Assembly: GCA_035656635.1 (NCBI GenBank)
Contig: DASRSD010000107.1
Location: forward strand, 1-57,756
DNA from: Pirellulales bacterium
GTDB lineage: Bacteria > Planctomycetota > Planctomycetia > Pirellulales > JADZDJ01
Direction: 5' to 3'
Length of the DNA: 57,756 bases
In this document: positions 16,705 through 43,401 of the stretch, one piece after another
Numbering within the stretch: position 1 is the stretch's first letter
How the letters are laid out: every line of letters begins with the position of its first letter
Made by a program: the position numbers and the translations under genes
Notes under the pieces: generated by a model
The model's input: the letters and a program-made list of their open reading frames with translations, nothing else
The model's database searches: none
Told to the model about the DNA's origin: nothing

Positions 16705-16796
16705 CAAAGCGATTAGCGGTTGGCAATCAGCAATTAGCCGGCAAGATATTATAGCGTTTGCTGGTTAGTCGCTGATTGCTAGCGGCTAACTGCTTT
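16705..16796. repeat. Long imperfect palindrome abutting the rsgA start codon
   Basis: Two arms of about 39 bases (16706-16744 and 16757-16796) surround a 12-base AT-rich loop. The outer AAAGC/GCTTT, the middle GCAATCAGC/GCTGATTGC and the inner CCGGCAA/TTGCTGG segments pair, with scattered G-T or single mismatches. The element fills nearly the whole gap between the FHA gene and rsgA. On the minus strand it would place a strong hairpin where the rsgA ribosome-binding site should be, and just after the FHA stop codon. Confidence 0.85.
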
Positions 16797-17271: not shown

Positions 17272-17438
17272 GAAAACCTCTTGAATAAACCGGGATCGGC
17301 CCCTGTGCTTGATCCCTGTTTCTGGTACTCGGTAGGATACACCATGGTGATCTGGGACGCCTTGCCTAAAACTGTCGAACGACGCTGGGTTGGGCTTCCT
17401 TTGAATTTATTCACGCCTACCCGCAGCGGTCAACTGAA

Positions 17439-30929: not shown

Positions 30930-32279
30930 ATGCCCACTTTTCAATTTGAGGCGATGGATTCGAGCGGGCAAGAAATTAAGGACATGATTGAAGCCCCAAC
31001 CGAGGCCGAGGCTCAGGCCACGATTCGGCAAATGGGCTATTTCGTCACCCGAATTGCGGTGAAGAAGGAACGGAAGCAGAAGGCTGAAAAAAGGGAGGGG
31101 AAAAAGAAACGCGGCTTCGCCATTGGCGGGGTAAGCAGCAAGCTGCTATCCACCTTTACCCGTCAACTTTCCATCTTGCAGGACGCCGGTTTACCGATTT
31201 TGAGAAGCCTCCGCATTCTGGAGGGCCAACAAAAATCGGGACGCATGAAAAACAGCTTGATGGATGTCTGCGACGAAATTGAAGCTGGCGCCACGCTCAG
31301 CGAGGCCATGGGCAAAAGCCCCAAGGCCTTTGATCGCTTGTACGTGAATATGATCAAAGCCGGCGAGGCCGGCGGTGCGCTCGAAGTCATTTTGCGCCGC
31401 TTGGCGGAATTTCAGGAACGGTCGCAATCGCTGAAGCGAAAAGTCAAAGGCGCCATGGTCTACCCGATTGTGGTCGTGACCGTGGCGGTGCTGATTTTGG
31501 TATTCATCATGATCAAAATCGTGCCGGCGTTTCAAAAAATCTTTGAAGATTTCAAAACGACGCTGCCCACGCCGACCATTCTGCTGATCAAAATTTCTTA
31601 CGCCACGGTTCACTTTTGGTATTTGATTCCGCTCATTCCAGTCAGCGTTTGGCTGACGGTCAAGCTGATCCGGAAATTCAGCTACGGACGCGTCGGCTGG
31701 GATTTGTTCACGCTCAAAGCGCCGGTATTCGGGCAACTGGTGGAAAAGAACATTATGGCCCGCACCACGCGCACCTTGGGAACCCTGGTGGCCAGCGGCG
31801 TGCCGATTTTGGAAGCCATGAACATTACCCGCGAAACCGCCGGCAATGCCATGTTCGAGCGGCTGTACGGGAAAGTCATCGAATCGATCCGCGAGGGAGA
31901 AAGCATCGCCAAGCCGTTGCGCGAGCATTCCACGCCGCCGTTTAATTTCATCACCGTGTTATTTTGGTTCGCGTTTGTGGGCGGGCCCATCGGCGTGCTG
32001 CTGTACCTCACGAAGGTGAAGCAGCGCGTGGTCGATGACTTGGTCGTGAACATGGTCGACGTGGGCGAAGAAACGGGCGAATTGGACACCATGCTATACA
32101 AGGTGGCCGACACCTACGACGAAGAAGTGGCGGTCCTCACCGAAAGCTTGGTTAGTTTGTTGGAACCCCTCTTGATTGTGTTCCTAGGATGTATGGTCGG
32201 TTTCATTGTGGTGTCGTTGTTCCTGCCGTTGGTCAAATTGATTACCGATTTGTCGAGCGGCGGCGGCAAAAAACACTAA
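30930..32279 (+). CDS. PilC/GspF inner-membrane platform protein with an extra hydrophobic segment
   Basis: A 449-residue platform protein that contacts the ATPase and organises pilin insertion. It has two GspF domains: STFTRQLSILQDAGLPILRSLRI and the GEAGG(A)LEVIL motif in the first, and TRTLGTLVASGVPILEAMNITRET and VGEETGELDTMLYKVAD in the second. Membrane segments lie at about 172-198, 228-247 and 415-440. A further hydrophobic run at about 339-364 (ITVLFWFAFVGGPIGVLLYL) sits between the second domain's STPPF and VVNMVDVGEETG, where the family normally has only a few residues. The basic stretch at 45-60 (KKERKQKAEKREGKKKR) is also notable. Confidence 0.92.
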   Translation: MPTFQFEAMDSSGQEIKDMIEAPTEAEAQATIRQMGYFVTRIAVKKERKQKAEKREGKKKRGFAIGGVSSKLLSTFTRQLSILQDAGLPILRSLRILEGQQKSGRMKNSLMDVCDEIEAGATLSEAMGKSPKAFDRLYVNMIKAGEAGGALEVILRRLAEFQERSQSLKRKVKGAMVYPIVVVTVAVLILVFIMIKIVPAFQKIFEDFKTTLPTPTILLIKISYATVHFWYLIPLIPVSVWLTVKLIRKFSYGRVGWDLFTLKAPVFGQLVEKNIMARTTRTLGTLVASGVPILEAMNITRETAGNAMFERLYGKVIESIREGESIAKPLREHSTPPFNFITVLFWFAFVGGPIGVLLYLTKVKQRVVDDLVVNMVDVGEETGELDTMLYKVADTYDEEVAVLTESLVSLLEPLLIVFLGCMVGFIVVSLFLPLVKLITDLSSGGGKKH

Positions 32280-32304: not shown

Positions 32305-32369
32305 ATTTAGCCCCGGCGGCCACGCCGGGACAAAGAGATTTAGCCCCGGCGGACACGCCGGAAAAAAGA
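32305..32369. repeat. Two tandem 33-bp hairpin repeats
   Basis: Units 32305-32337 and 32338-32369 are nearly identical, each starting ATTTAGCCCCGGCGG and containing a CCGGCG/CGCCGG stem. They fill the gap between pilC and the first pseudopilin gene. No T-run follows on the plus strand, so they are not a standard terminator for pilC. Confidence 0.9.
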
Positions 32370-32447
32370 ATGCAAACTCAGGGCGCAACAGTCGATTTTC
32401 AAATGCCAGATCAACTCTGGAACGAAGAACTCGAAAGGACGGCACTT

Positions 32448-33719
32448 ATGTCAACGTGCCACAAACTCGCTAGGCAGCGTGCGAAAGGCAGCGGTTTTAC
32501 GCTGACCGAAATGCTGATTGTGATTTCCATCATCGGCATCTTGGCCTCGTTGATTTCGGTGGCCGCGTATCAGGCGTTGCAGGCGGCCAAGCGCGCTCGC
32601 ACACAGACGGAAATCAGCAACATGGCCAGCGCCATCGAGCAGTTCAAGCAAAAGTTCGGCGATTATCCGCCGTCGTATTTGGACCACCGTGATCAAAACG
32701 CCCTAGCCCTGATGAAGCGCTTTTTGGCCAAGGCGTTTCCGCGCTGTAATCCGAGCGTCGAGGCCGCTTACATTCCCTGGCAAAATGCTAATACGGTTTC
32801 GCCCAGCCCGGTGTTGTATCCGTTTTTGGATAATACGGGAGCGCTTAATTTGTGGGACCCCGGTTTAAACACCAGTCATGTTGTTAGCGCAGCCGATCAT
32901 CCGATGACTGCCCCACAATCGTTCGTGTTTTGGCTGACGAGCATAACCAAAGACCCGGTTCATCCACTGTCGGCGCCGACGACCGATCGGCAAGCGTTTT
33001 TCGATTTCGATACGGCTCGGCTGTCGCGCGTTTCAGCCACCGCGCCAGTCTGGAACGTGCTGACGCTGACCGGGCCGCCAGCGGCGAACATTGCCCTGGT
33101 CAATAATTCCCTATGCCCAGTTTACAATCCTGGCGTGTACTTTCCGCGCGATGGCAACCAACAAGCCTATGTGTACTTTGAAGCCCGTTGCTATTTATTT
33201 CATGCGTTATTTCAGCCATCTAACTATCCACCTCCTTCTCCTCCGGCGCCTGCGCCGCCGCTGAATAATCCGCCGGTGCCGTATTTATCGCAAACGGCGC
33301 CTTGGGACTTGAACGCCAACGGCAAGTTAGATGTTGGCGTTCCCGCGACCAGTTTCACGCCGGAAGTTACTACCGATGCGTCTTTCAACATTCTGTCGGG
33401 AATCAACGATTCCAATAAATCGTTCACCGACTTTCAAAAACTGTGCGTGAATCCCAATTCATTCCAAATTATTTCCGCGGGTGCGGATAACGATTTCGGC
33501 ACGGTGAATGTCGCCAATTCGGCCGGCTCCGCGCCGGGGGTGCCCGCCACGCCGGCCGCCGTTAATTACACCATCAGTTCTTCTGCCACCGGCCCTGGCG
33601 CATATTTGATTTACTACAAGTCGTACCCGGATGGCCAAGGTTACGACACCACGTTTAACGCCGATGACGACAACATGACGAACTTCACCGAAAAAACGCT
33701 GGGACAAGCGAAGCCCTAG
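32448..33719 (+). CDS. Pseudopilin, GspG-like
   Basis: A 423-residue prepilin-like protein. The leader MSTCHKLARQRAKGSG is cut before FTLTEMLIVISIIGILASL (Glu at +5), followed by AKRARTQTEISNMASAIEQFKQKFGDYPPS, the amphipathic helix and loop pattern seen in GspG-type major pseudopilins. The remaining 350 residues form a large globular part, rich in Pro/Asn and with a C-terminal DDDNMTNF segment that could bind calcium; this is far longer than GspG (about 140). The frame is open from 32370, but AAGGA eight bases before the ATG at 32448 sets the start. First of five pseudopilin-like genes in tandem. Confidence 0.88.
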   Translation: MSTCHKLARQRAKGSGFTLTEMLIVISIIGILASLISVAAYQALQAAKRARTQTEISNMASAIEQFKQKFGDYPPSYLDHRDQNALALMKRFLAKAFPRCNPSVEAAYIPWQNANTVSPSPVLYPFLDNTGALNLWDPGLNTSHVVSAADHPMTAPQSFVFWLTSITKDPVHPLSAPTTDRQAFFDFDTARLSRVSATAPVWNVLTLTGPPAANIALVNNSLCPVYNPGVYFPRDGNQQAYVYFEARCYLFHALFQPSNYPPPSPPAPAPPLNNPPVPYLSQTAPWDLNANGKLDVGVPATSFTPEVTTDASFNILSGINDSNKSFTDFQKLCVNPNSFQIISAGADNDFGTVNVANSAGSAPGVPATPAAVNYTISSSATGPGAYLIYYKSYPDGQGYDTTFNADDDNMTNFTEKTLGQAKP

Positions 33720-33767: not shown

Positions 33768-34898
33768 ATGCAGGCAACAAATCACAAACTGTTATGCCGA
33801 AAACTCCGACGCCGTCGGGTTTTTTCAGCACTGCCCCCTGCGCCCTACTCCCTGTGCCCTACTTCCTGCGCCCCGCGCCCCGCTTTCACCCTCGTAGAGC
33901 TACTGGTGGCCATTACGATTATGGCCATCTTAGCGTCGATGGCGCTGTTTGCGCTGGCCAGTGCTTCGGAAGCCGCCAAAGGGGCCAAAACCCGCGCCCT
34001 CATCGCCAAGCTGGATGTCTTGGTCATGGCGAAATACGAATCATATCGCACTCGGCGCGTGCCGGTGGACGTGCAGCAAGTAGCGGCCTTTCGGAATTAC
34101 ACGCCGTCGATTGTCGGCTGGGCTCAAGCCCGGCTGGATGTCATTCGCGAACTGATGCGCATGGAATTGCCCGATCGGTTTACCGACATTACTGATGCTC
34201 CGGTCACGAAAATGAAAGACAGTAGCGGTAATGTCACCACCATGGCTCGGTCCTCGGCCAGTGTTGCGTATTTGGCGACGATGCCCACTGCGCCCTCGCG
34301 AACCTACGAAAGCGCCAAGTGCTTGTATCTGTTTGTGGCCAAAGGCACCGACGATCCGGACGTCATGCAGCAGTTTTCGCCGGAAGATATTGCCACTGAC
34401 ACCGACGGCATGAACTACTTTGTGGACGCTTGGGGCGAGCCTATTTTCCTGCTTCGCTGGGCGCCCGGTTTTCAATCGCCGCTGCAGCCGTGGAATGTCA
34501 ATTCCACCGACGCGCTAGGCCATTCCAACACCAACAAAACCTATCCCACGGTGAGCGATCCCATCGATCCCATGCAAGTTTATAAACCGGGAGCGGGAGA
34601 TTTGTTTAACAACCCCAATGCAACCACCGCCGGGCAGATTTATCCGCCGCTGTTCCCGCTGATATTTTCCAACGGGCCCGACAAAATTGGCGACATTTTT
34701 CTGACGGGCGCCAGCCCGCCGTTTCAATATTCCACGACGTCACCGCCGAATAATCCGTTCGCTTTGGTGAGCGGTGGATTGTTGGGCGCGCCGACCGACT
34801 TGCCCAGCGACTTCACCCCGGTTGGCGTGAACACCGGCGACGGCGTCGACAATTCGGTCGACAACATTTCCAACCACGATTTAACGGAAAACCAGTAA
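33768..34898 (+). CDS. Prepilin-like protein with long repeat-like leader
   Basis: A 376-residue prepilin-like protein. The leader is about 39 residues long and Pro/Ala/Cys/Arg-rich, encoded by tandem CCCTACTTCCTG/CCCTGCGCC-like DNA. It ends ...RPA before FTLVELLVAITIMAILASMALFALASA, so the -1 residue is Ala where Gly is usual. The body has ARLIAKLD-like helix text (ALIAKLDVLVMAKYESYRTR) and a large Pro/Asn-rich domain ending in DGVDNSVDN. ATG 33768 has GAGAGTGAACC upstream, a weak site. The gene lies 48 bases after its neighbour. Confidence 0.83.
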   Translation: MQATNHKLLCRKLRRRRVFSALPPAPYSLCPTSCAPRPAFTLVELLVAITIMAILASMALFALASASEAAKGAKTRALIAKLDVLVMAKYESYRTRRVPVDVQQVAAFRNYTPSIVGWAQARLDVIRELMRMELPDRFTDITDAPVTKMKDSSGNVTTMARSSASVAYLATMPTAPSRTYESAKCLYLFVAKGTDDPDVMQQFSPEDIATDTDGMNYFVDAWGEPIFLLRWAPGFQSPLQPWNVNSTDALGHSNTNKTYPTVSDPIDPMQVYKPGAGDLFNNPNATTAGQIYPPLFPLIFSNGPDKIGDIFLTGASPPFQYSTTSPPNNPFALVSGGLLGAPTDLPSDFTPVGVNTGDGVDNSVDNISNHDLTENQ

Positions 34899-34915: not shown

Positions 34916-36028
34916 ATGAATCAGGCTCGAAAACAGTGGTCTGTCGCAGGCAATCAGCAGTCGCTGGACCGCTTTGGGCCGGCGTGTTCTCCGATCGCAA
35001 ATCACCCACCGCAGTCCGCTGCTCGTGGTTTTACCCTGACCGAGCTTTTAATCGTGGTAGCGATTATCGTCACGGTATCAGTCGCCACCGTGCCGCTCGT
35101 GAAGCCATCGCTCGATAGCCGGCGCATTCGGGAATCGGGCCGGATGGCAAGCACGCAATTTGCCTCCGCGCAAAGCGAAGCGTTGGCCAATGGCCGCTCG
35201 GCCGGCGTGTGGCTGGAGCGCATGTTGAACGAGCCGACGGCCTGCATGGATATGTTTCTGTGCGAAGTGCCGCTGCCTTATGCCGGCGATTCAGAAACAT
35301 CGAAGGCCACGATTACGGCCCTCGGCCCAACCAACGCCTCTGTAAAATTCCAAAGCTCCGCCAGCAGCGATATCGGCTGGTATGGCTTATTGAAGCCCGG
35401 CGATTTAATCCGCTTCAACTACAGCGGACCGTATTACCAGCTGGGTGGTCCCACGCAGCAAGATCCGCCCGGAAACGTCGTGTTGAAGGAGTTGAATACC
35501 ACGGCCTTTACGCTCACTTCCACCAACGCCGCCGATATGACGATCCATGTTCCTCCCTCAGTTTCTGGGAGTTGGGAAACGCCATATCAGGTGTACCGCC
35601 AGCCCGTGAAGGCCTCGCACACGCCGGTGCAATTGCCCGCCGGCGATGTCATCGATTTGTACTACTCAGGTATGTCAGGCATGGCCATCTCAGGCGTCAG
35701 CGATTCGTTCGGCAACAGCTTGTCGAGCAACGCCTCACTGCCGGTGATTGTTACGTTCGATCAAACCGGCGAATTAGAAAGTTTGTACTACAACGGCACC
35801 AAGCACAGTATTACCGGGCCGCTGTATTTTCTGGTCGGCAAGCGCGACAAGTTAGCTTCGCTACAGACCGACACGTCGAACGACAACTTGACCGACATGG
35901 AAAATCTGTGGGTGGCAATTAACCCACAAACGGGCTTGGTCACCACTGCGGAAGTGGCATCGTCAGCCTCCAGCGTGCAGGGGTCGCGAGCCTTTGCCAC
36001 GTCGGCCCAATCCATGGGAGGCAGATGA
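34916..36028 (+). CDS. Prepilin-like protein, GspH-like
   Basis: A 370-residue prepilin-like protein. The leader of about 39 residues ends in QSAARG before FTLTELLIVVAIIVTVSVATVPLVKPSLD, with Glu at +5. The pattern RRIRESGRMASTQFASAQSEALANGRSAGVWLE after the helix resembles GspH/FimT-type minor pseudopilins. The frame opens at TTG 34907; the ATG at 34916 is the more usual start. No clear Shine-Dalgarno is visible. It starts 17 bases after the previous stop, and its own stop TGA at 36026-36028 is two bases from the next ATG, so coupling is likely. Confidence 0.83.
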   Translation: MNQARKQWSVAGNQQSLDRFGPACSPIANHPPQSAARGFTLTELLIVVAIIVTVSVATVPLVKPSLDSRRIRESGRMASTQFASAQSEALANGRSAGVWLERMLNEPTACMDMFLCEVPLPYAGDSETSKATITALGPTNASVKFQSSASSDIGWYGLLKPGDLIRFNYSGPYYQLGGPTQQDPPGNVVLKELNTTAFTLTSTNAADMTIHVPPSVSGSWETPYQVYRQPVKASHTPVQLPAGDVIDLYYSGMSGMAISGVSDSFGNSLSSNASLPVIVTFDQTGELESLYYNGTKHSITGPLYFLVGKRDKLASLQTDTSNDNLTDMENLWVAINPQTGLVTTAEVASSASSVQGSRAFATSAQSMGGR

Positions 36029-36029
36029 A

Positions 36030-36148
36030 ATGCAAAAGGCAAAAGGCAGAAAGCAGAATGTGCAAAATAGTATGCCCGACGTGTGCAGTTTGCCGACTGC
36101 AACACGGTCCGCTGGCCGATTGCGTTTTCTGCCTTCTGCCTTTTGCAT
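36030..36148. repeat. Inverted repeat inside the leader of a pseudopilin gene
   Basis: Arms 36030-36052 and 36126-36148 are complementary at 22 of 23 positions. They are made of AAAAGGCAGA-like units. A smaller inner hairpin, GTGTGCAGT against ACTGCAACAC, lies between them at about 36081-36106. The element starts exactly at the ATG of the gene and stays in frame to the prepilin cleavage site. Confidence 0.9.
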
Positions 36149-37469
36149 TCTGCCTTCGCGGCCCTGCCGCGGCATCAGCCTGATGGAAGTGCTCATTTCC
36201 ATCGGCATTATGGCGGTGGGATTGTTAAGCATTGCTTCCTTGATTCCCGTGGGCGGCGTCCAGGCGAATCGGGCGAACATTGAAGAACGCAAAGCCACGC
36301 TGGGACAAAACGCTTACCGCGAATTCCAAATTCGCGGCATGGCCAACCCGCAAAATTGGGTGCGTTTTACCGGCGCAAACTGGGGCAGCTATTTGCCGCT
36401 GAATAATATCCAGCAAACAGGGTTCGCAGATTTTGCCTCGCTGCCGCCGCTGGTCATCGATCCGCTAATGCTGGCCGCCGGACACGCAGCGACACTGGCC
36501 TCATTTCCCGCAATGTATCAGGCCTATGGAGGCAATCTTCCCGGTCCGCGCATCTCGCGGATCGGCGTCAGTTCCACCGAGGCTGCAGATACCAGTGGCG
36601 CCATTTCGCCCAGCCGCCCGTTGGCCGAAGGCATGTTGACCGCGGCTGACGATGTGCTGGTCAATCGCACCAACGACAACAGCCAGCCGGGCACCAGCGC
36701 GATGATCTATGCTGATCCTCCGACGAACTCTCTGCCGCTCAAGCGCGATTACGGCGGCTTGTTTACCTGGCTGGCCGTGCTGACGCCAAATCTGCCCTAT
36801 ACCACGCTGCCCGGTTCAAGTCCATCTGGCAGCATCAACATTCACTCGCCGCAAGCCATGGACGAGTTGCTGCTGTCGATTGTGATTTTCAATCGCCGCA
36901 TAGTAACTGCTGCCCCCGCACCGGCGACGAACGAGCAAGGTCAGGAAGAAATGGTGGCGGTTCACTGGGGACAATCCGCGACGCTCGATTCCACGCAGCA
37001 AATTGGCGGCGGCGAATTCACGCTGACCGACAACAATGCCACGGGCAACGCCACGGGCCGGCTAGGCATGGTCCAGCCGAATCAGTGGATTATGCTTTGC
37101 CGGTATTTGCCATATACGTTCACTTACACCGATAGCTCCTCAGGCCTGACCCAGTCAAAGAATTACCCCTGGCTTCAGGCCAAGTGGTATCGAGTGGTGG
37201 CGGCGGGAGATACGCTTGCGCCGACATCGGCGGGGAGCCCGTACACTCGGCAAGTAACCTTGACCGGGCCGGACTGGGAAGCCGATCCAACCGCGGCCAA
37301 CAATGTGACTGCATCGCTGCAATATGTTTCGCCGTCACAGGTGAGCTGGCCCTCGGCAATTCCCAGCAACTCACAGAATTTCACCACGTATGCCATTATT
37401 TTGGACGGAGCCGTGGGAGTATATCAGCGCGTAATTCACTTGGAGGGCGCATCCGCGTGGAGTCAATGA
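36030..37469 (+). CDS. Prepilin-like protein, PilV/GspI-like, with palindrome-encoded leader
   Basis: A 479-residue prepilin-like protein. The leader is about 47 residues, then ...RPCRG before ISLMEVLISIGIMAVGLLSIASLIPVGGVQA, a PilV/GspI-like helix with Glu at +5 and Ile instead of Phe at +1. The region beyond contains NRANIEERKATLGQNAYREFQIRGM and a large Ser/Thr/Pro-rich body. Both the start codon and the last part of the leader (RFLPSAFCILPS) fall in the arms of an inverted repeat (36030-36148). GGGAGG precedes this ATG by nine bases. An internal ATG at 36072 would shorten the leader and is the alternative start. Confidence 0.83.
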   Translation: MQKAKGRKQNVQNSMPDVCSLPTATRSAGRLRFLPSAFCILPSRPCRGISLMEVLISIGIMAVGLLSIASLIPVGGVQANRANIEERKATLGQNAYREFQIRGMANPQNWVRFTGANWGSYLPLNNIQQTGFADFASLPPLVIDPLMLAAGHAATLASFPAMYQAYGGNLPGPRISRIGVSSTEAADTSGAISPSRPLAEGMLTAADDVLVNRTNDNSQPGTSAMIYADPPTNSLPLKRDYGGLFTWLAVLTPNLPYTTLPGSSPSGSINIHSPQAMDELLLSIVIFNRRIVTAAPAPATNEQGQEEMVAVHWGQSATLDSTQQIGGGEFTLTDNNATGNATGRLGMVQPNQWIMLCRYLPYTFTYTDSSSGLTQSKNYPWLQAKWYRVVAAGDTLAPTSAGSPYTRQVTLTGPDWEADPTAANNVTASLQYVSPSQVSWPSAIPSNSQNFTTYAIILDGAVGVYQRVIHLEGASAWSQ

Positions 37470-37584
37470 AGTTCGAATTTGGATTACGAAGTCCCGGCCA
37501 GCGCACCGGGCAAATTACGGTTCCAGGGCCGAGTTTCCGTTTGCCAGATTGAGGGGCTGCGAGAAGTTGCCAAAGGTTTTTCCC

Positions 37585-40500
37585 ATGATCAGCCAGCACG
37601 CAAACCGCAATCCTCGTTTAACCCTGGGAAGTTCTATTTCCTGCGCTTCCAGGCAGAAAGTTAGCCCGGCCGTTTCGCTGGCCGCTTACCGCTTACCGCC
37701 TGCGGCCATGCATCGCCGCGGCGTGCTGTTGTTGGTGGTGCTCATTTTGCTCGTCATGTTTGTATTGATGGCGGTTACCTACGTGTTGGTGACCACGCGG
37801 GAACTGTCCTCGAACAAGGCCCTGGCCATCAAAGATGCTTCCACCACCGCAGACGCCCCGCAGCAACAGCTGGACGAAGCCATGCGGCAACTGCGGAGCG
37901 GTTCGACAAACACTCGTTCCGTCATCTACCCGCACAGTTTGCTCGAGCACATGTACGGGCCGTACGGAATTACCGGCACGGTGAACGCAGTTGATGCCAA
38001 TGGCAACGCCACGCGCACCAAGCCGTCGGACCCGTCGACCGACGAAATTGTGGAGTTCACAGCGACCAATCCGCTGCCCACCGACTCGAGTTTTTATATC
38101 TCCGCGCAACAATTGACGGCCCTGCAAAATCAATCGCTACTGACCGACGGCTATTTTGACGGCTGCGTCATCACCATGACCAGCGGGCAAGCCAGCGGCT
38201 TAAGTTCCCGCATTGTGCGTTACGACGCATCCAATTCCAGCAATCCCGTGTTCCATGTGTTGGCGTTCAAAGGCAATAACGGAAATGTCGCGCCGGCGAG
38301 CAAAGACACGTTTGTCATCAATGGCCGCGCGTTTTCCGGCACGGGGCGTGGCCTTAATCCCACGACCGGCGTGCTCGATGCCGCGGACAGCAATCTCCGC
38401 CCATTTGCTTTGCTGCCCAATCCCGTGTTCTACCAAGCCAGCGGCACGTACAGTTCGTCAACGCCATTCGGCGGCATCGGCGGCGCGAACACCGATTACG
38501 AAGCGCCCGATTACCAGCACATGTACCTGTCGTTTATAGTGCAAAACACTAATGGCTTGCCGCAAACTATTCTGCCATCGTTCCACCGGCCCGATTTAAT
38601 CAACTATTGGAAGAACCAAGCGAATCCGCCGCCGCTGCGACAATACATGCTACGGCCCAACTCCATCGACCATCCTAACTTCACCGGCAGCAATCCCACA
38701 TTCGACGCCGTGAATGGCCCCTGGGATGTCGATAACGATGGCGACGGCGTGGCCGATAGCGTGTGGTTGGACCTGGGCGACCCGGTGCTTACCACTTTCG
38801 ATGGCCGGCTATACAAGCGGCTGTACGCTATTTTGTGCGTCGATTTGGATGGCCGGCTGAACCTGAACGCCGCCGGCACCAGCGAGCAAACCGCCGGCAC
38901 GCACACCCAGCAAATTACCGGACCATACGCCGGCGGTTCCGGCACGGTCACACTCCCGCGCGGCGAAGGAAATGGCCCGGCAGATATTGATTTATCCGCC
39001 GCCGGCTTCAATTCCGCGGACCTCAGCAACCTGTTGCATGGCGGGTCGGTCAGCGGCCAACCGTATCCGGGCCGCTACGGCGTTTCCAACGAATCGATAA
39101 GCTCTGAATCCGTGGGCACGGCGGAGGCCGGGCAAACCGGCAGCAAAAATCCGCTGGCGCTGGTCGAGCATTTCCAATGGACCGACGATTTAAGCCAGCC
39201 GCCGTTTTCTGCCTTTGGCAGCCCCAGCGATTTGTGGGGCCGTATGGCCGTAGCGCTCGATTTCCGCGGCCAGCCGATATACTGGAAGCCCGCTTGGACA
39301 AACGAGGCGTTCACCAATTGCCCCTACAACATCAATTTATCGATCGAGGGTTCCAATTTCGATGCGCCATTTACGGTGCACGAGTTGGAGCGCGTGCTGC
39401 GGCCCAACGACATCGACAGCGTCGATTTGCCCCAACGGCTGTGGCAGCTTTCCGGCACCGCTTCGCTGGCTTCTGGTCCGTCTCCCACTGCTGCATTGGT
39501 GCGCGAACACGCCATTACCATCGACAGTTGGGACCCGCCCAGTCCCGGCGTGATTGCGCCGGATTATTTGCGGACTACGCTATCCACCCTGTACGGTCGC
39601 AAATTTGCCACCAACATTATCGAATTGCTCACGGCACGGTTGAAAAAAGAAAATCCGTCGATGACCACGGCGCAAATCAACTTCAATATTCGGCGGTTGC
39701 TGTCGCCGGAGTTGATTGCCGGGCTGCGAATGAACGTGAATCGTTCGTTGGGGGACGGCCGCGACGGGGACAACAACGGCGTAGTCGACGAGCCCACGCA
39801 ATCGGAAGTGAGTACCGAAGGCAAAGCGAATGCCTGGGCCTGGCTCGATCCTGCGCTAGCCGGCTACCTGCCCGCCCCACCGACGCTCGATTTAGTCAAC
39901 GGCATCGACGTGAACGGCGACGGCGTGGTCGATCAAAAAGATCAACTACTGGCCCGACAACTTTACGCCCGGCACCTGTATGTGCTGGCGCGATTGATGA
40001 TTGACGACAATGCGCTGAATTCTAACGATTGGTTTTCCGATCCCCGCTTCAATCCCACCGATCAGGATGTGCAGGAACTCGGTATTCGTCGGATCGCACA
40101 ATGGGCGACCAATGTGGTCGATTTTATGGATCCCGACAACATTATGACCCCGTTCGAATATGACATGTTCCCATTTTCGGCAACGGACCGCAACACAGGG
40201 CAGACCAAGGATAGTACTAATCCGACGAGCGGAAGAACGTGGTGTGTTGACGGCATCATCGACGATGGTACCGGCGCCTTGAGTCCGGATGACAACCAAT
40301 TGACATACACATGGCGGCGCATGGTCTGGGGTTGCGAGCGGCCCGAGCTGCTGTTGACCGAAACCATGGCATTTCACGACCGTCGCGTGAAAGATTCAAC
40401 ATTTGACAACAACAAGGGAACTACCACACAGGACACGACAAATCCCGACCCTACGTTGGATCAAGTGCGCATTCCGCAAGGTTCGGCCTTCTTCGAGCTG

Positions 40501-43401
40501 TACTCTACTGGAAATCCCAATCAGTTGCAGCAACCGAGCGGAAGTCCCAATCAGCCGCAGCAATCGAAAGATCTGTACGACAATAGCACCGGCCAGTGGA
40601 TGCTAGATTTAGGCAAAATGGCGCCGGCCGATTCCAGCAGCGCGGCATATCCGGTGTGGCGATTGGCGATCACCGGTCCCGATGCGAACCAAACAACCGA
40701 CTCAGACGGCGACACTCCCAACGACGTGCAATCACAAAGCAGCAAATATACAGACTTTTATTCGTACGATACCGGCGACACCGTCAATACCCCAGCCAGC
40801 TTGGTATACCACGAAGATAAAGCGGCGGGTGGTACCGGTACCGTTAGCGTTAAACCACCCAAGATTGATCGGGTCGTATGGTTTACCAAAAATCCGCCAC
40901 CGAACGGAACATATGATGTAAATGCCAATCAAATTTATTATAGGCAAGGCGGCGGCAACAATTGTTTTCTCGGTTTAGGCCAGTACGCCGTTGTGGGTCC
41001 GCGAGAAGTCACTCGCATCGGCTGGAGCACAAACGCCAGCACCGATGCCACCAGCATGTATTCCGCTCCGGGCGATGAACCAGTCGGCGCGAAAATTGTG
41101 CTGCAGCCCGGTTATGGTGGGGTGCAGTTTACCGATCATAAACTCAGCGGCAGCGATTCCAGCTCGGTCTCCAACTACCCCGATTCCAACTCTATCCAAC
41201 CGCCGCTAGCAATCATTGCCGCGGCAGATTTGTCCGGCACCACAGGCACACCGTGGGACAGCGGCTGGAGCAGCAATACATCGCAGGCCGCCCGGCTCGA
41301 TACCATTAATCCCAGTTCTTTGAATCTTTTTGGCGTCGGCATCAGCATTTCTGAGCCCTTGCCGGGCGCAAGCTACTATCAGGAGCCTAAGGTGCAGCGC
41401 CCGAAGTTCGACAACGAGGCTGCCGTCACGGATTGCTATGCTCCGCTGAATGAAACAGACCCCAGCGCGACCGGACAACGGTTCCTCGACCAGCCGGAGG
41501 ACAGCGATACCACTAAGGACCGACTGACAAAACATATGCCGCCGTCAGCGAACAACAAGCTGCCTTCGGGAACGTATCCCAATTACAAAACCGTGCTGTT
41601 GCAACGGCTGGCCAATCCGCTGGCGCCTTATAACGCCTACAACAATCCCTATTTGACTGTCGACTGGATGCCAATCGATTTGACAGTGTTCAATGGCCAG
41701 GCGAAACCAGTTGATTCCGGCGGCAATGCCATCTCCGATCCCGACGATCCTAATGCGACGGCGCCCACAGTTAATTTCGCCGCTCGGCAACGTGGTGGCA
41801 AACTGACTGGATCCAGCCCGGCTTATACTTCCGACTTCAACATCTGGCTGCAGCAGGAGGCGGCAAATCAGGCAGTTGACAATCCGCCGCCAACAGCAGC
41901 CAACGACAGCACCAGCACGATGGTGTTCCCGCATCAATTGAAATATTACAAAGACGGTTCCAGCCCCGCGCCTTCCGCAGCGGCGCTCGCAAATCCCAAC
42001 GCTGATAATACGCCTGGCGCAGGTTTGCATACCTTCGGCTTTGTGAACAGTTATTTTCAGCAGTCGGCCGGTCAGGGAGCACTTACGGGAACGTTCGGAC
42101 CACTGACTTTGGGCGAAGTGAACAGCTTTACAACGCATGTCGGCGATCCACGGCAGCCTTTCCCCTGGCTCACTTGGAATAACCGTCCGTATGCCAACAT
42201 TGCCGAGTTAATGATGGTGCCCGCTACCCATCCCGGCCGATTGTTGCACGAGTTCAGCTTGGCTTCGACATCCGCCAATCCATACAAAAGCAGCGACCGG
42301 GCAGAATGGTACGCTCCGTATGGGCATCTGTTGAACTTTTTCAGCTCAGATAAGAATACTGTCACGTCGCCCAATCTATCGCTGATGTTCGAATACTTGC
42401 GCGTCCCCTCGCCGTTTGTGGGCACCGACACAGTACTCGATCCGGCCATGTTTGCCTGGAATGGCGGCACGCCGGGCGAGTCTGGCTCCTTACCCAGCGG
42501 CAGCGAACCTGCCGGCACCGCCGGCTTGCATCCGCCGTTTTCCACCATTTCCAATTACCGCGATCCGGGCCGCGTAAACATCAACACGATTGCCGGCGGT
42601 ATAGATTCGACGACAGGCATGCCCGTTCCCAAAAGCCACGTTTGGAATGCGCTCATAGGCGGCGACCTCAACGCGGCAGGTGCCGTAGCGCCAGGTCCGA
42701 CCTTTACCGATTTGGTTGCCAGCCGCCGCGGTTATCCCGTCTTAACGACGAATTCTCCGTACAGCTTCGACAGCGCTCATCCATCGATTTTTTTCAATCC
42801 CTTCCGTTCCGCCGCCGGTTACAACATGGTGCCGCTCACCGCACTGTCGTTGAGCAAGCCCACCAATGCCACTTTGTTCCGAACCGGTATGGATGTTAAT
42901 GGCCGTAGCATCACCGATAACAATATCGAAGGAGGCACGGCCGGATTGGGCGACCCGTCATCTATTGATAATACAAAGAATGTCCTTCCTCTCATGGCCA
43001 ACAAGCCGGCGCTGAATGTGCAAATATCGTCCGGAGCGCCGCCGGCGTATATCGATGCCACAAGAAATCCGTACTTCATGTATCAGGGGCTCGGGCACTT
43101 AACCAACAAGCTTACTACCCGCAGCAATGTGTTTGCGGTTTGGATTACGGTCGGGTATTTTGAAGTGACACCGTGGTATGGCACCAACGGGTCGGGCACG
43201 GCCAATACCAGCGGGCCGCAAGTTTTCGATACCGCCCATCCCGATGGTTACCAGCTGGGCCAGGAATTGAAGGCCGATACCGGCGAAATCGAGCGGCACC
43301 GCGCGTTTTACATGATCGACCGCAGCATTCCCGTCGGCTTCGAGCGCGGGCAGGAGCTGAACGACGACAAAGCGGTGGTGCTAAAGCGGTTCATCGAGTG
43401 A
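37585..43401 (+). CDS. Giant GspK-like pseudopilin (about 1940 residues)
   Basis: A 1938-residue protein with a prepilin-like start: MHRRG before VLLLVVLILLVMFVLMAVTYVLV, without the usual +5 Glu, as in GspK. Two RLNLNAAG and RVNINTIAG segments (near residues 425 and 1661) resemble the INxNTA motif of GspK. Calcium-loop-like motifs are NDGDGVADS, DGDNNGVVDEP and DVNGDGVVDQKDQ (the last dockerin-like, near residue 772). GspK is usually about 300 residues, so this is a six-fold enlargement. Start choice is open: ATG 37585 (AAAGG upstream) gives a 41-residue extra leader encoded partly by CCGCTTACCGCTTACCGCC-like tandem DNA; ATG 37708 gives the classic short leader. It would sit at the fibre tip. 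Confidence 0.8.
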   Translation: MISQHANRNPRLTLGSSISCASRQKVSPAVSLAAYRLPPAAMHRRGVLLLVVLILLVMFVLMAVTYVLVTTRELSSNKALAIKDASTTADAPQQQLDEAMRQLRSGSTNTRSVIYPHSLLEHMYGPYGITGTVNAVDANGNATRTKPSDPSTDEIVEFTATNPLPTDSSFYISAQQLTALQNQSLLTDGYFDGCVITMTSGQASGLSSRIVRYDASNSSNPVFHVLAFKGNNGNVAPASKDTFVINGRAFSGTGRGLNPTTGVLDAADSNLRPFALLPNPVFYQASGTYSSSTPFGGIGGANTDYEAPDYQHMYLSFIVQNTNGLPQTILPSFHRPDLINYWKNQANPPPLRQYMLRPNSIDHPNFTGSNPTFDAVNGPWDVDNDGDGVADSVWLDLGDPVLTTFDGRLYKRLYAILCVDLDGRLNLNAAGTSEQTAGTHTQQITGPYAGGSGTVTLPRGEGNGPADIDLSAAGFNSADLSNLLHGGSVSGQPYPGRYGVSNESISSESVGTAEAGQTGSKNPLALVEHFQWTDDLSQPPFSAFGSPSDLWGRMAVALDFRGQPIYWKPAWTNEAFTNCPYNINLSIEGSNFDAPFTVHELERVLRPNDIDSVDLPQRLWQLSGTASLASGPSPTAALVREHAITIDSWDPPSPGVIAPDYLRTTLSTLYGRKFATNIIELLTARLKKENPSMTTAQINFNIRRLLSPELIAGLRMNVNRSLGDGRDGDNNGVVDEPTQSEVSTEGKANAWAWLDPALAGYLPAPPTLDLVNGIDVNGDGVVDQKDQLLARQLYARHLYVLARLMIDDNALNSNDWFSDPRFNPTDQDVQELGIRRIAQWATNVVDFMDPDNIMTPFEYDMFPFSATDRNTGQTKDSTNPTSGRTWCVDGIIDDGTGALSPDDNQLTYTWRRMVWGCERPELLLTETMAFHDRRVKDSTFDNNKGTTTQDTTNPDPTLDQVRIPQGSAFFELYSTGNPNQLQQPSGSPNQPQQSKDLYDNSTGQWMLDLGKMAPADSSSAAYPVWRLAITGPDANQTTDSDGDTPNDVQSQSSKYTDFYSYDTGDTVNTPASLVYHEDKAAGGTGTVSVKPPKIDRVVWFTKNPPPNGTYDVNANQIYYRQGGGNNCFLGLGQYAVVGPREVTRIGWSTNASTDATSMYSAPGDEPVGAKIVLQPGYGGVQFTDHKLSGSDSSSVSNYPDSNSIQPPLAIIAAADLSGTTGTPWDSGWSSNTSQAARLDTINPSSLNLFGVGISISEPLPGASYYQEPKVQRPKFDNEAAVTDCYAPLNETDPSATGQRFLDQPEDSDTTKDRLTKHMPPSANNKLPSGTYPNYKTVLLQRLANPLAPYNAYNNPYLTVDWMPIDLTVFNGQAKPVDSGGNAISDPDDPNATAPTVNFAARQRGGKLTGSSPAYTSDFNIWLQQEAANQAVDNPPPTAANDSTSTMVFPHQLKYYKDGSSPAPSAAALANPNADNTPGAGLHTFGFVNSYFQQSAGQGALTGTFGPLTLGEVNSFTTHVGDPRQPFPWLTWNNRPYANIAELMMVPATHPGRLLHEFSLASTSANPYKSSDRAEWYAPYGHLLNFFSSDKNTVTSPNLSLMFEYLRVPSPFVGTDTVLDPAMFAWNGGTPGESGSLPSGSEPAGTAGLHPPFSTISNYRDPGRVNINTIAGGIDSTTGMPVPKSHVWNALIGGDLNAAGAVAPGPTFTDLVASRRGYPVLTTNSPYSFDSAHPSIFFNPFRSAAGYNMVPLTALSLSKPTNATLFRTGMDVNGRSITDNNIEGGTAGLGDPSSIDNTKNVLPLMANKPALNVQISSGAPPAYIDATRNPYFMYQGLGHLTNKLTTRSNVFAVWITVGYFEVTPWYGTNGSGTANTSGPQVFDTAHPDGYQLGQELKADTGEIERHRAFYMIDRSIPVGFERGQELNDDKAVVLKRFIE

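Follow-up and report, generated by a model that had tools for sequence, protein, structure and literature searches.

Introduction

Rickettsia palindromic elements (RPEs) are dispersed palindromes, at most about 150 bp long, that lie in frame within protein-coding genes (PMC10969869). Heptanucleotide repeats are a second described group, with GGGAATC in Xanthomonas, GGGGA(C/T)T in Nostoc and tandem heptanucleotides in Calothrix (PMC4692102). The TAACTGA heptamer repeats of Beggiatoaceae and cyanobacteria are 7-nt direct repeats found near start codons and occasionally in open reading frames (ORFs) at protein ends (PMC4679880). Here we analyse an inverted repeat that forms the start of a pseudopilin gene, the fourth prepilin-like gene of its cluster (gene 4), in a 57,756-nucleotide stretch of a Pirellulales bacterium (contig DASRSD010000107.1 of assembly GCA_035656635.1; the window). 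We consider it likely that this element is a pair of palindromic arrays from a heptanucleotide family dispersed in the genome, lying in frame in the gene 4 leader, and that the leaders of this cluster have been refilled recurrently in Pirellulales.

The element resembles RPEs in being a dispersed palindrome that is open in frame in its host gene, its translation being suggested by that open frame. A sequence-only reading of this DNA had drawn the same likeness, which holds for the behaviour of the element but not for its unit structure, here a heptanucleotide array. Unlike a defined RPE family, the element is not conserved over its whole length, as a blastn search of its own genome returned the arms only. 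Heptanucleotide arrays of many sequences make up the arms, the core is unshared and single arrays are common. RPEs also occupy unrelated metabolic genes, whereas these repeats are concentrated in one class of removable leader. With the Xanthomonas, Nostoc and Calothrix repeats, as described in PMC4692102, they share the form of dispersed 7-nt arrays that lie mostly between genes and close to gene edges and are at times inverted; unlike those, the arrays here are repeatedly open in frame within pseudopilin leaders. The TAACTGA repeats are likewise 7-nt direct repeats near start codons, but they have one fixed unit, no recurrent target gene is reported for them and their forward repeats carry stops in all frames (PMC4679880). 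The gene 4 leader itself resembles class III signal peptides in being hydrophilic and ending in Gly ahead of a hydrophobic stretch with Glu5, but the known leaders of this class have 6-26 residues (reviewed in PMC4471445), against 48 here and 66 in the orthologue of the same genus, and the sequence here is derived from repeats. With the search terms used, we found no description in the literature of repeats concentrated in prepilin leaders.

Results

The inverted repeat and the gene 4 leader

The left arm (AATGCAAAAGGCAAAAGGCAGAAA, 36029-36052) and the right arm (TTTCTGCCTTCTGCCTTTTGCATT, 36126-36149) are complementary at 23 of 24 positions and are separated by 73 nt. The match at 22 of 23 positions that had been noticed over 36030-36052 and 36126-36148 is thus confirmed. 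The ATG does lie within the left arm, though not as its first three bases as had been supposed; the arm begins one base earlier, so the ATG forms bases 2-4 of the 24-nt arm. That the arms are made of short repeat units also proved right, as lag-7 analysis gives both a period of 7, with imperfect heptamer units. The last heptamer of the pyrimidine-rich tract (36149-36155) is able to pair with 36019-36025. The inverted repeat is not a product of chance, because it scores 21.5 where none of 250 coding windows reached 12, and because the RNA fold of the element region (-84.1 kcal/mol) has a z of -5.9 against shuffles. In the predicted fold, ATG 36030 and part of the Shine-Dalgarno (SD) sequence are paired. 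Rfam returned miRNA-precursor matches to the hairpin, all of them sub-threshold, and these were dismissed as chance.

From ATG 36030 the reading frame stays open across the whole element and reaches the prepilin cleavage site, RPCRG^ISLMEVLISIGIMAVGLL, in agreement with the sequence-only reading. One base lies between the stop of gene 3 and this ATG, and the predicted leader has 48 residues, Gly -1 included. The right tract is separated from the Gly codon by 13 nt and no start codon occurs from the right arm to the cleavage site, so translation of gene 4 must cross at least the right arm. Gene 4 has the features of a type IV pilin or pseudopilin (PF07963, TIGR02532), namely a basic leader ending in Gly, a cleavage motif with Glu5 and a hydrophobic stretch. 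PF07963 matches it with 24.9 bits in a six-frame search (cut-off 21.2) and with 19.5 bits in hmmscan of the long ORF, while the matches of the mature part to TIGR02523 (PilV-like) and TIGR02598 are weak and both below cut-off. Relatives of the mature protein occur in 50 of 58 genomes. Membership in the prepilin family suggests that the leader is translated and then cleaved off; insertion as an event is something that we infer.

A dispersed heptanucleotide family

The repeat family to which the arms belong has a period of 7 and the unit GGCAGAA/TTCTGCC. In 253 kb of the host genome, autocorrelation at lag 7 detects 16 tracts (0-4 at the other lags from 4 to 13), and a 146-bp query matches its own genome by blastn at about 40 places through the arms. 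The same search gave no second copy of the 67-nt core or of the whole element; the 119-bp element is thus not a repeat in its entirety. When two mismatches at most are allowed, a run of three GGCAGAA units (control: the reversed pattern) matches at 61 places in the host genome (controls 1 and 0), 88 in G001 of the same genus, 33 in G006 and 14 in G043, with few or none in the remaining relatives. What had been taken for a dispersed palindrome is therefore dispersed in its arms and single-copy in its core. The copies in the host genome are mostly single arrays rather than palindromes, mostly intergenic and of several different units. The motif ACACGGTCCGCT between the arms occurs once as the full 12-mer in the loci searched (0.07 expected) and its shorter forms are modestly above chance, so we claim no core motif. 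Two stand-alone prepilins of the AFTLVELLVV type in the host genome (G000, C182:34768-34839 and C184:42017-42085) also carry heptamer arrays or palindromes, large ones that extend to the cleavage site.

Recurrence and turnover between fixed anchors

Our counts refer to 69 related loci with 185 prepilins, in which L096 and L112 are one gene of one genome; the sets counted have genomes in common and kinship between loci was not corrected. A heptamer tract lies at most 200 nt upstream of the cleavage site in 38 of the 185 prepilins, many of these tracts ending within about 20 nt of it. A second set of 37 leaders, from genomes overlapping the first, has 20 with such a tract. In a typical filled leader the ATG is followed by a purine-rich array, the core and a pyrimidine-rich array, with 0-20 nt left before the cleavage codon. 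Many leaders have the left arm near the ATG and the right arm near the cleavage codon, a narrow placement at both ends, and some have one array only and no hairpin. Arrays are present in most cluster genes of L126, L128, L138, L139, L140 and L146, and no tracts were found in the mature parts of the cluster genes of these six loci. Many relatives, L111 for example, have short leaders and no arrays. In L136 (1150-1416) a 118-nt GGCAGTA/GGCAGTG array precedes a second long array within the leader, making it a candidate for copy-number variation.

The turnover of the leader is apparent when the gene is compared with its syntenic orthologue in G001 (L251, contig C77). The start anchor there reads CAATCGATGGGAGGCAAGTGATG, against CAATCCATGGGAGGCAGATGAAATG in the host, and the cleavage anchor is also kept. 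Between the same anchors lie other arrays, largely of the AGTGGTC and TTCTGCC types, in a leader of 66 residues, so the leader sequence is not conserved as protein; genes 1 and 2 of that cluster also have arrays. The proposal that the insertion lies between the original start and the cleavage site stands with one amendment, that the start codon belongs to a conserved junction with the upstream gene. In another genus, sequences read between the TAA of the upstream stop and the GGC of the cleavage site give an unfilled MTNQLHIRR^G in G154 against 44-45 residues in L. limnantheis and PB1.3.31. Unrelated dispersed palindrome families, GACGCGYAAGCGAGGG and AAAAGGTTCCNGAC, sit at the same leader position in other relatives. 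The former has 105 matches in G032 and 54 in G016 (reversed-pattern controls 0), and the latter 15 in G025 and 27 in G202 (controls 0 except for 1 forward match in G202). In G032 and G016 the GACGCGYAAGCGAGGG copies are mostly closely spaced inverted pairs, and the family is separate from the heptamers.

The reading frame is mostly kept through these changes. Of the 47 leaders with an array or palindrome that comes as near as 60 nt to the cleavage codon, 42 have the pilin frame open from one end of the element to the other, and the two alternative frames are open in 23 and 18; in 43 of the 47, ATG starts or SD-backed starts are found solely upstream of the element or within it. Orthologue leaders range from 9 to about 66 residues, with unrelated sequences, and the long ones tend to carry repeats; the median is 50 residues with a palindrome, 36 with a single array and 18 with neither. 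G001 has a paralogous pseudopilin in a second cluster (L253:539, minus strand, contig C127), with no arrays in the residues before its Gly; L081 is this paralogue and is not syntenic.

Enrichment in cluster leaders

An inverted-repeat score of at least 12 in 140-nt windows was reached by 25 of 185 cluster leaders, compared to 2 of 89 other prepilins, 3 of 250 gene starts, 4 of 128 intergenic windows and 0 of 250 coding windows. With 200-nt windows, inverted repeats are found in 31 of 182 cluster leaders and 2 of 89 other prepilins. Tract density was taken from 400 kb each of the complete genomes of Lacipirellula limnantheis and Adhaeretor mobilis, with genes called by a simple script. The former has 6 tracts in 800 bp of cluster leaders and 11 in 93 kb of intergenic DNA (P 9e-10), the latter 5 in 800 bp and 3 in 92 kb (P 1e-10, both at the intergenic rate); with the rate found over the 200 bp that precede genes P is 8e-8 and 1e-9, all of these values being descriptive, as both clusters were chosen after tracts had been seen there and kinship was left uncorrected. 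Array density in the cluster leaders of these two genomes is thus about 60- to 190-fold above that of intergenic DNA. None of the 29 other prepilins examined in them has a tract, compared to 7 of 8 cluster prepilins.

Other features of the cluster and of related genomes

The cluster, a GspF/PilC-like gene followed by five prepilin-like genes, has the layout of a type II secretion-like pseudopilin cluster (Table 1). Prepilin gene 1 is closely preceded by a 33-bp unit with CCGGCGGACACGCCGG in two tandem copies (32305-32369 of the window), and a similar palindrome, CCCGGCGTCCACGCCGGG, is found upstream of the orthologue in G001. A further heptamer-like inverted repeat, with 39-nt arms that are 77% complementary, is at 16706-16796.

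Table 1. Positions in the window of the gene 4 element and of the surrounding cluster
Feature	Position	Strand	Remark
GspF/PilC-like platform protein gene	30930..32279	+	Head of cluster; 364.7 bits, below equivalog cut-off 424
Prepilin gene 1	32370..33719	+	GspG-like
Heptamer array in leader of prepilin gene 2	33831..33883	+	CTGCGCC type; ORF 33768-34898; ends at cleavage site of gene 2
Shine-Dalgarno GGAGG	36017..36021	+	Within 3' end of upstream pseudopilin gene; GGGAGG context also in relatives
TGA stop of upstream pseudopilin gene (gene 3)	36026..36028	+	
Purine-rich period-7 tract	36028..36058	+	Holds left palindrome arm
ATG start of pseudopilin precursor (gene 4)	36030..36032	+	Best SD-supported in-frame start
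Core between arms	36059..36125	+	Predicted to be translated; no repeat copies established
Pyrimidine-rich period-7 tract	36127..36157	+	Right palindrome arm
Gly(-1) codon	36171..36173	+	Predicted cleavage site RPCRG^ISLMEV
Mature pseudopilin, cluster gene 4	36174..37469	+	Stop included
Heptamer array of prepilin-like gene 5	37676..37707	+	Just 5' of MHRRG^VLLLVV; ORF 37549-43401, ~1,900 residues

In-frame repeats are also found in other proteins. The mutS gene of L. limnantheis (L181:16477-19230, minus strand) has an in-frame heptamer palindrome (AGGAGTC/GACTCCT) around 17316-17405, residues ~608-638, which closely precedes the Walker A motif. In the host genome, mnmG (L077:3803-3841, C183) has an in-frame GGGGAAT array that encodes SSFPIPHSPFPIPHS from about residue 134. 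Both repeats are putative insertions.

Discussion

In the reading that we favour, translation would begin at ATG 36030 and pass through both arms and the core, and the prepilin peptidase would be expected to take off all 48 residues at RG^ISLMEV. With the whole leader removed in this way the mature subunit would be unchanged. The close packing of the upstream gene would fix the leader's start codon, and the peptidase its cleavage site, while the stretch between these anchors could be swapped repeatedly for whatever dispersed repeats the genome has, as long as the frame stays open. Non-coding space at the junctions is scarce or absent, so a repeat that arrives at the edge of a gene would fall in the leader, the sole coding stretch of which nothing is left in the product.

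There are several points that weigh against this reading. In the same genomes, other prepilins have leaders that are just as dispensable yet lack repeats, so that tolerance alone is insufficient. Some long leaders have no recognisable repeats (37 residues before Gly in the L081/L253 paralogue, 34 in L084 and 58 in L101), so leader length is not always repeat-derived. Slippage and template switching might account, through local growth, for part of what we call insertion. We saw no case of insertion that separates near-identical strains, nor did we identify a mobilising enzyme; target-site duplications were not identified either, though no search for them was made. The sequence-only reading, which put the insertion in a leader that tolerates length because it is removed, is therefore supported as to the place and falls short as a full account. 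Tolerance explains the survival of the repeats, not their enrichment in the cluster. If tolerance were everything, with repeats landing anywhere and lasting in leaders only since these are removed, leader density should be at most that of intergenic DNA, and it is far higher; the repeat-free leaders of other prepilins tell against this too. Free variation of leader length and sequence, the kept frame and the tract-free mature parts in the loci listed would all fit such a view, which we nevertheless judge unlikely. For the density above other gene edges, pure tolerance seems to us a less likely cause than a mild benefit or a local bias of insertion.

The process that spreads the repeats may prefer these junctions or leader sequences, a possible explanation that we hold only tentatively. 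The narrow position at both ends in many leaders and the arrival of several repeat families would be expected of a hotspot, and Y1 transposase genes occur in the genomes (5 of 5 searched), with the link from these genes to the arrays being conjecture. Miniature inverted-repeat transposable elements (MITEs) combine terminal inverted repeats and target-site duplications with a related transposase; inverted repeats and Y1 genes were observed here, and a kinship with MITEs would likewise be conjecture. On the other side, the remaining prepilin leaders of the same genomes are free of repeats, and no shared target motif was found, no search for one having been made. It is also conceivable, if doubtful, that the cluster leaders are a dedicated landing place, selected or targeted, for several unrelated palindrome families, and that every gene of the operon opens with an exchangeable repeat element which is translated, then discarded, and sets pseudopilin expression. 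Selection for an mRNA hairpin, in which a stem-loop at gene starts would tune or couple pseudopilin translation or shield the operon mRNA, appears rather unlikely. It would account for the convergence of unrelated palindrome families on one position, for the pairing of the ATG and part of the SD in the predicted fold of gene 4 and for the enrichment above intergenic DNA. However, the mean unpaired probability of the start codon is 0.32 with a palindrome (n=21) and 0.47 without (n=74), which does not support general occlusion, and several leaders have one array only while many relatives have no element at all.

Phase variation, in which a change in the number of 7-nt units would shift the frame and switch the pseudopilin on or off, seems improbable as a general explanation and would be plausible only where a relative has pure arrays. 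The unit is not a multiple of 3, long perfect runs are present in L120, L139, L140 and L112 (4-5 copies in some relatives), and a passage of PMC4692102 reports simple repeats as over-represented near protein N-termini, taken there as a sign of phase variation. Most arrays are imperfect, though, as is the gene 4 element, and the median longest perfect run of 2.6 copies in leaders against 2.3 elsewhere is too small a difference to decide on contingency loci. Least probable is that the arrays are an inert non-coding spacer after which the gene starts. This is plausible for a few genes (L097, L122), but for gene 4 it is largely refuted by the lack of a start codon in the 13 nt from the right tract to the Gly codon, and across the leaders it runs against both the position of the usable starts and the preferentially open frame.

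The start sites annotated for pseudopilins of planctomycetes may be unreliable. Selfish palindromes in frame are reportedly unusually frequent in Rickettsia, and our findings extend the idea of such elements from Rickettsia to Planctomycetes. They also provide a natural assay, with two fixed protein anchors and a removable stretch between them that is refilled by different repeat families. In bacteria with complete genomes, such as Lacipirellula limnantheis and Adhaeretor mobilis, tolerance, targeted insertion and selection on RNA structure become separable.
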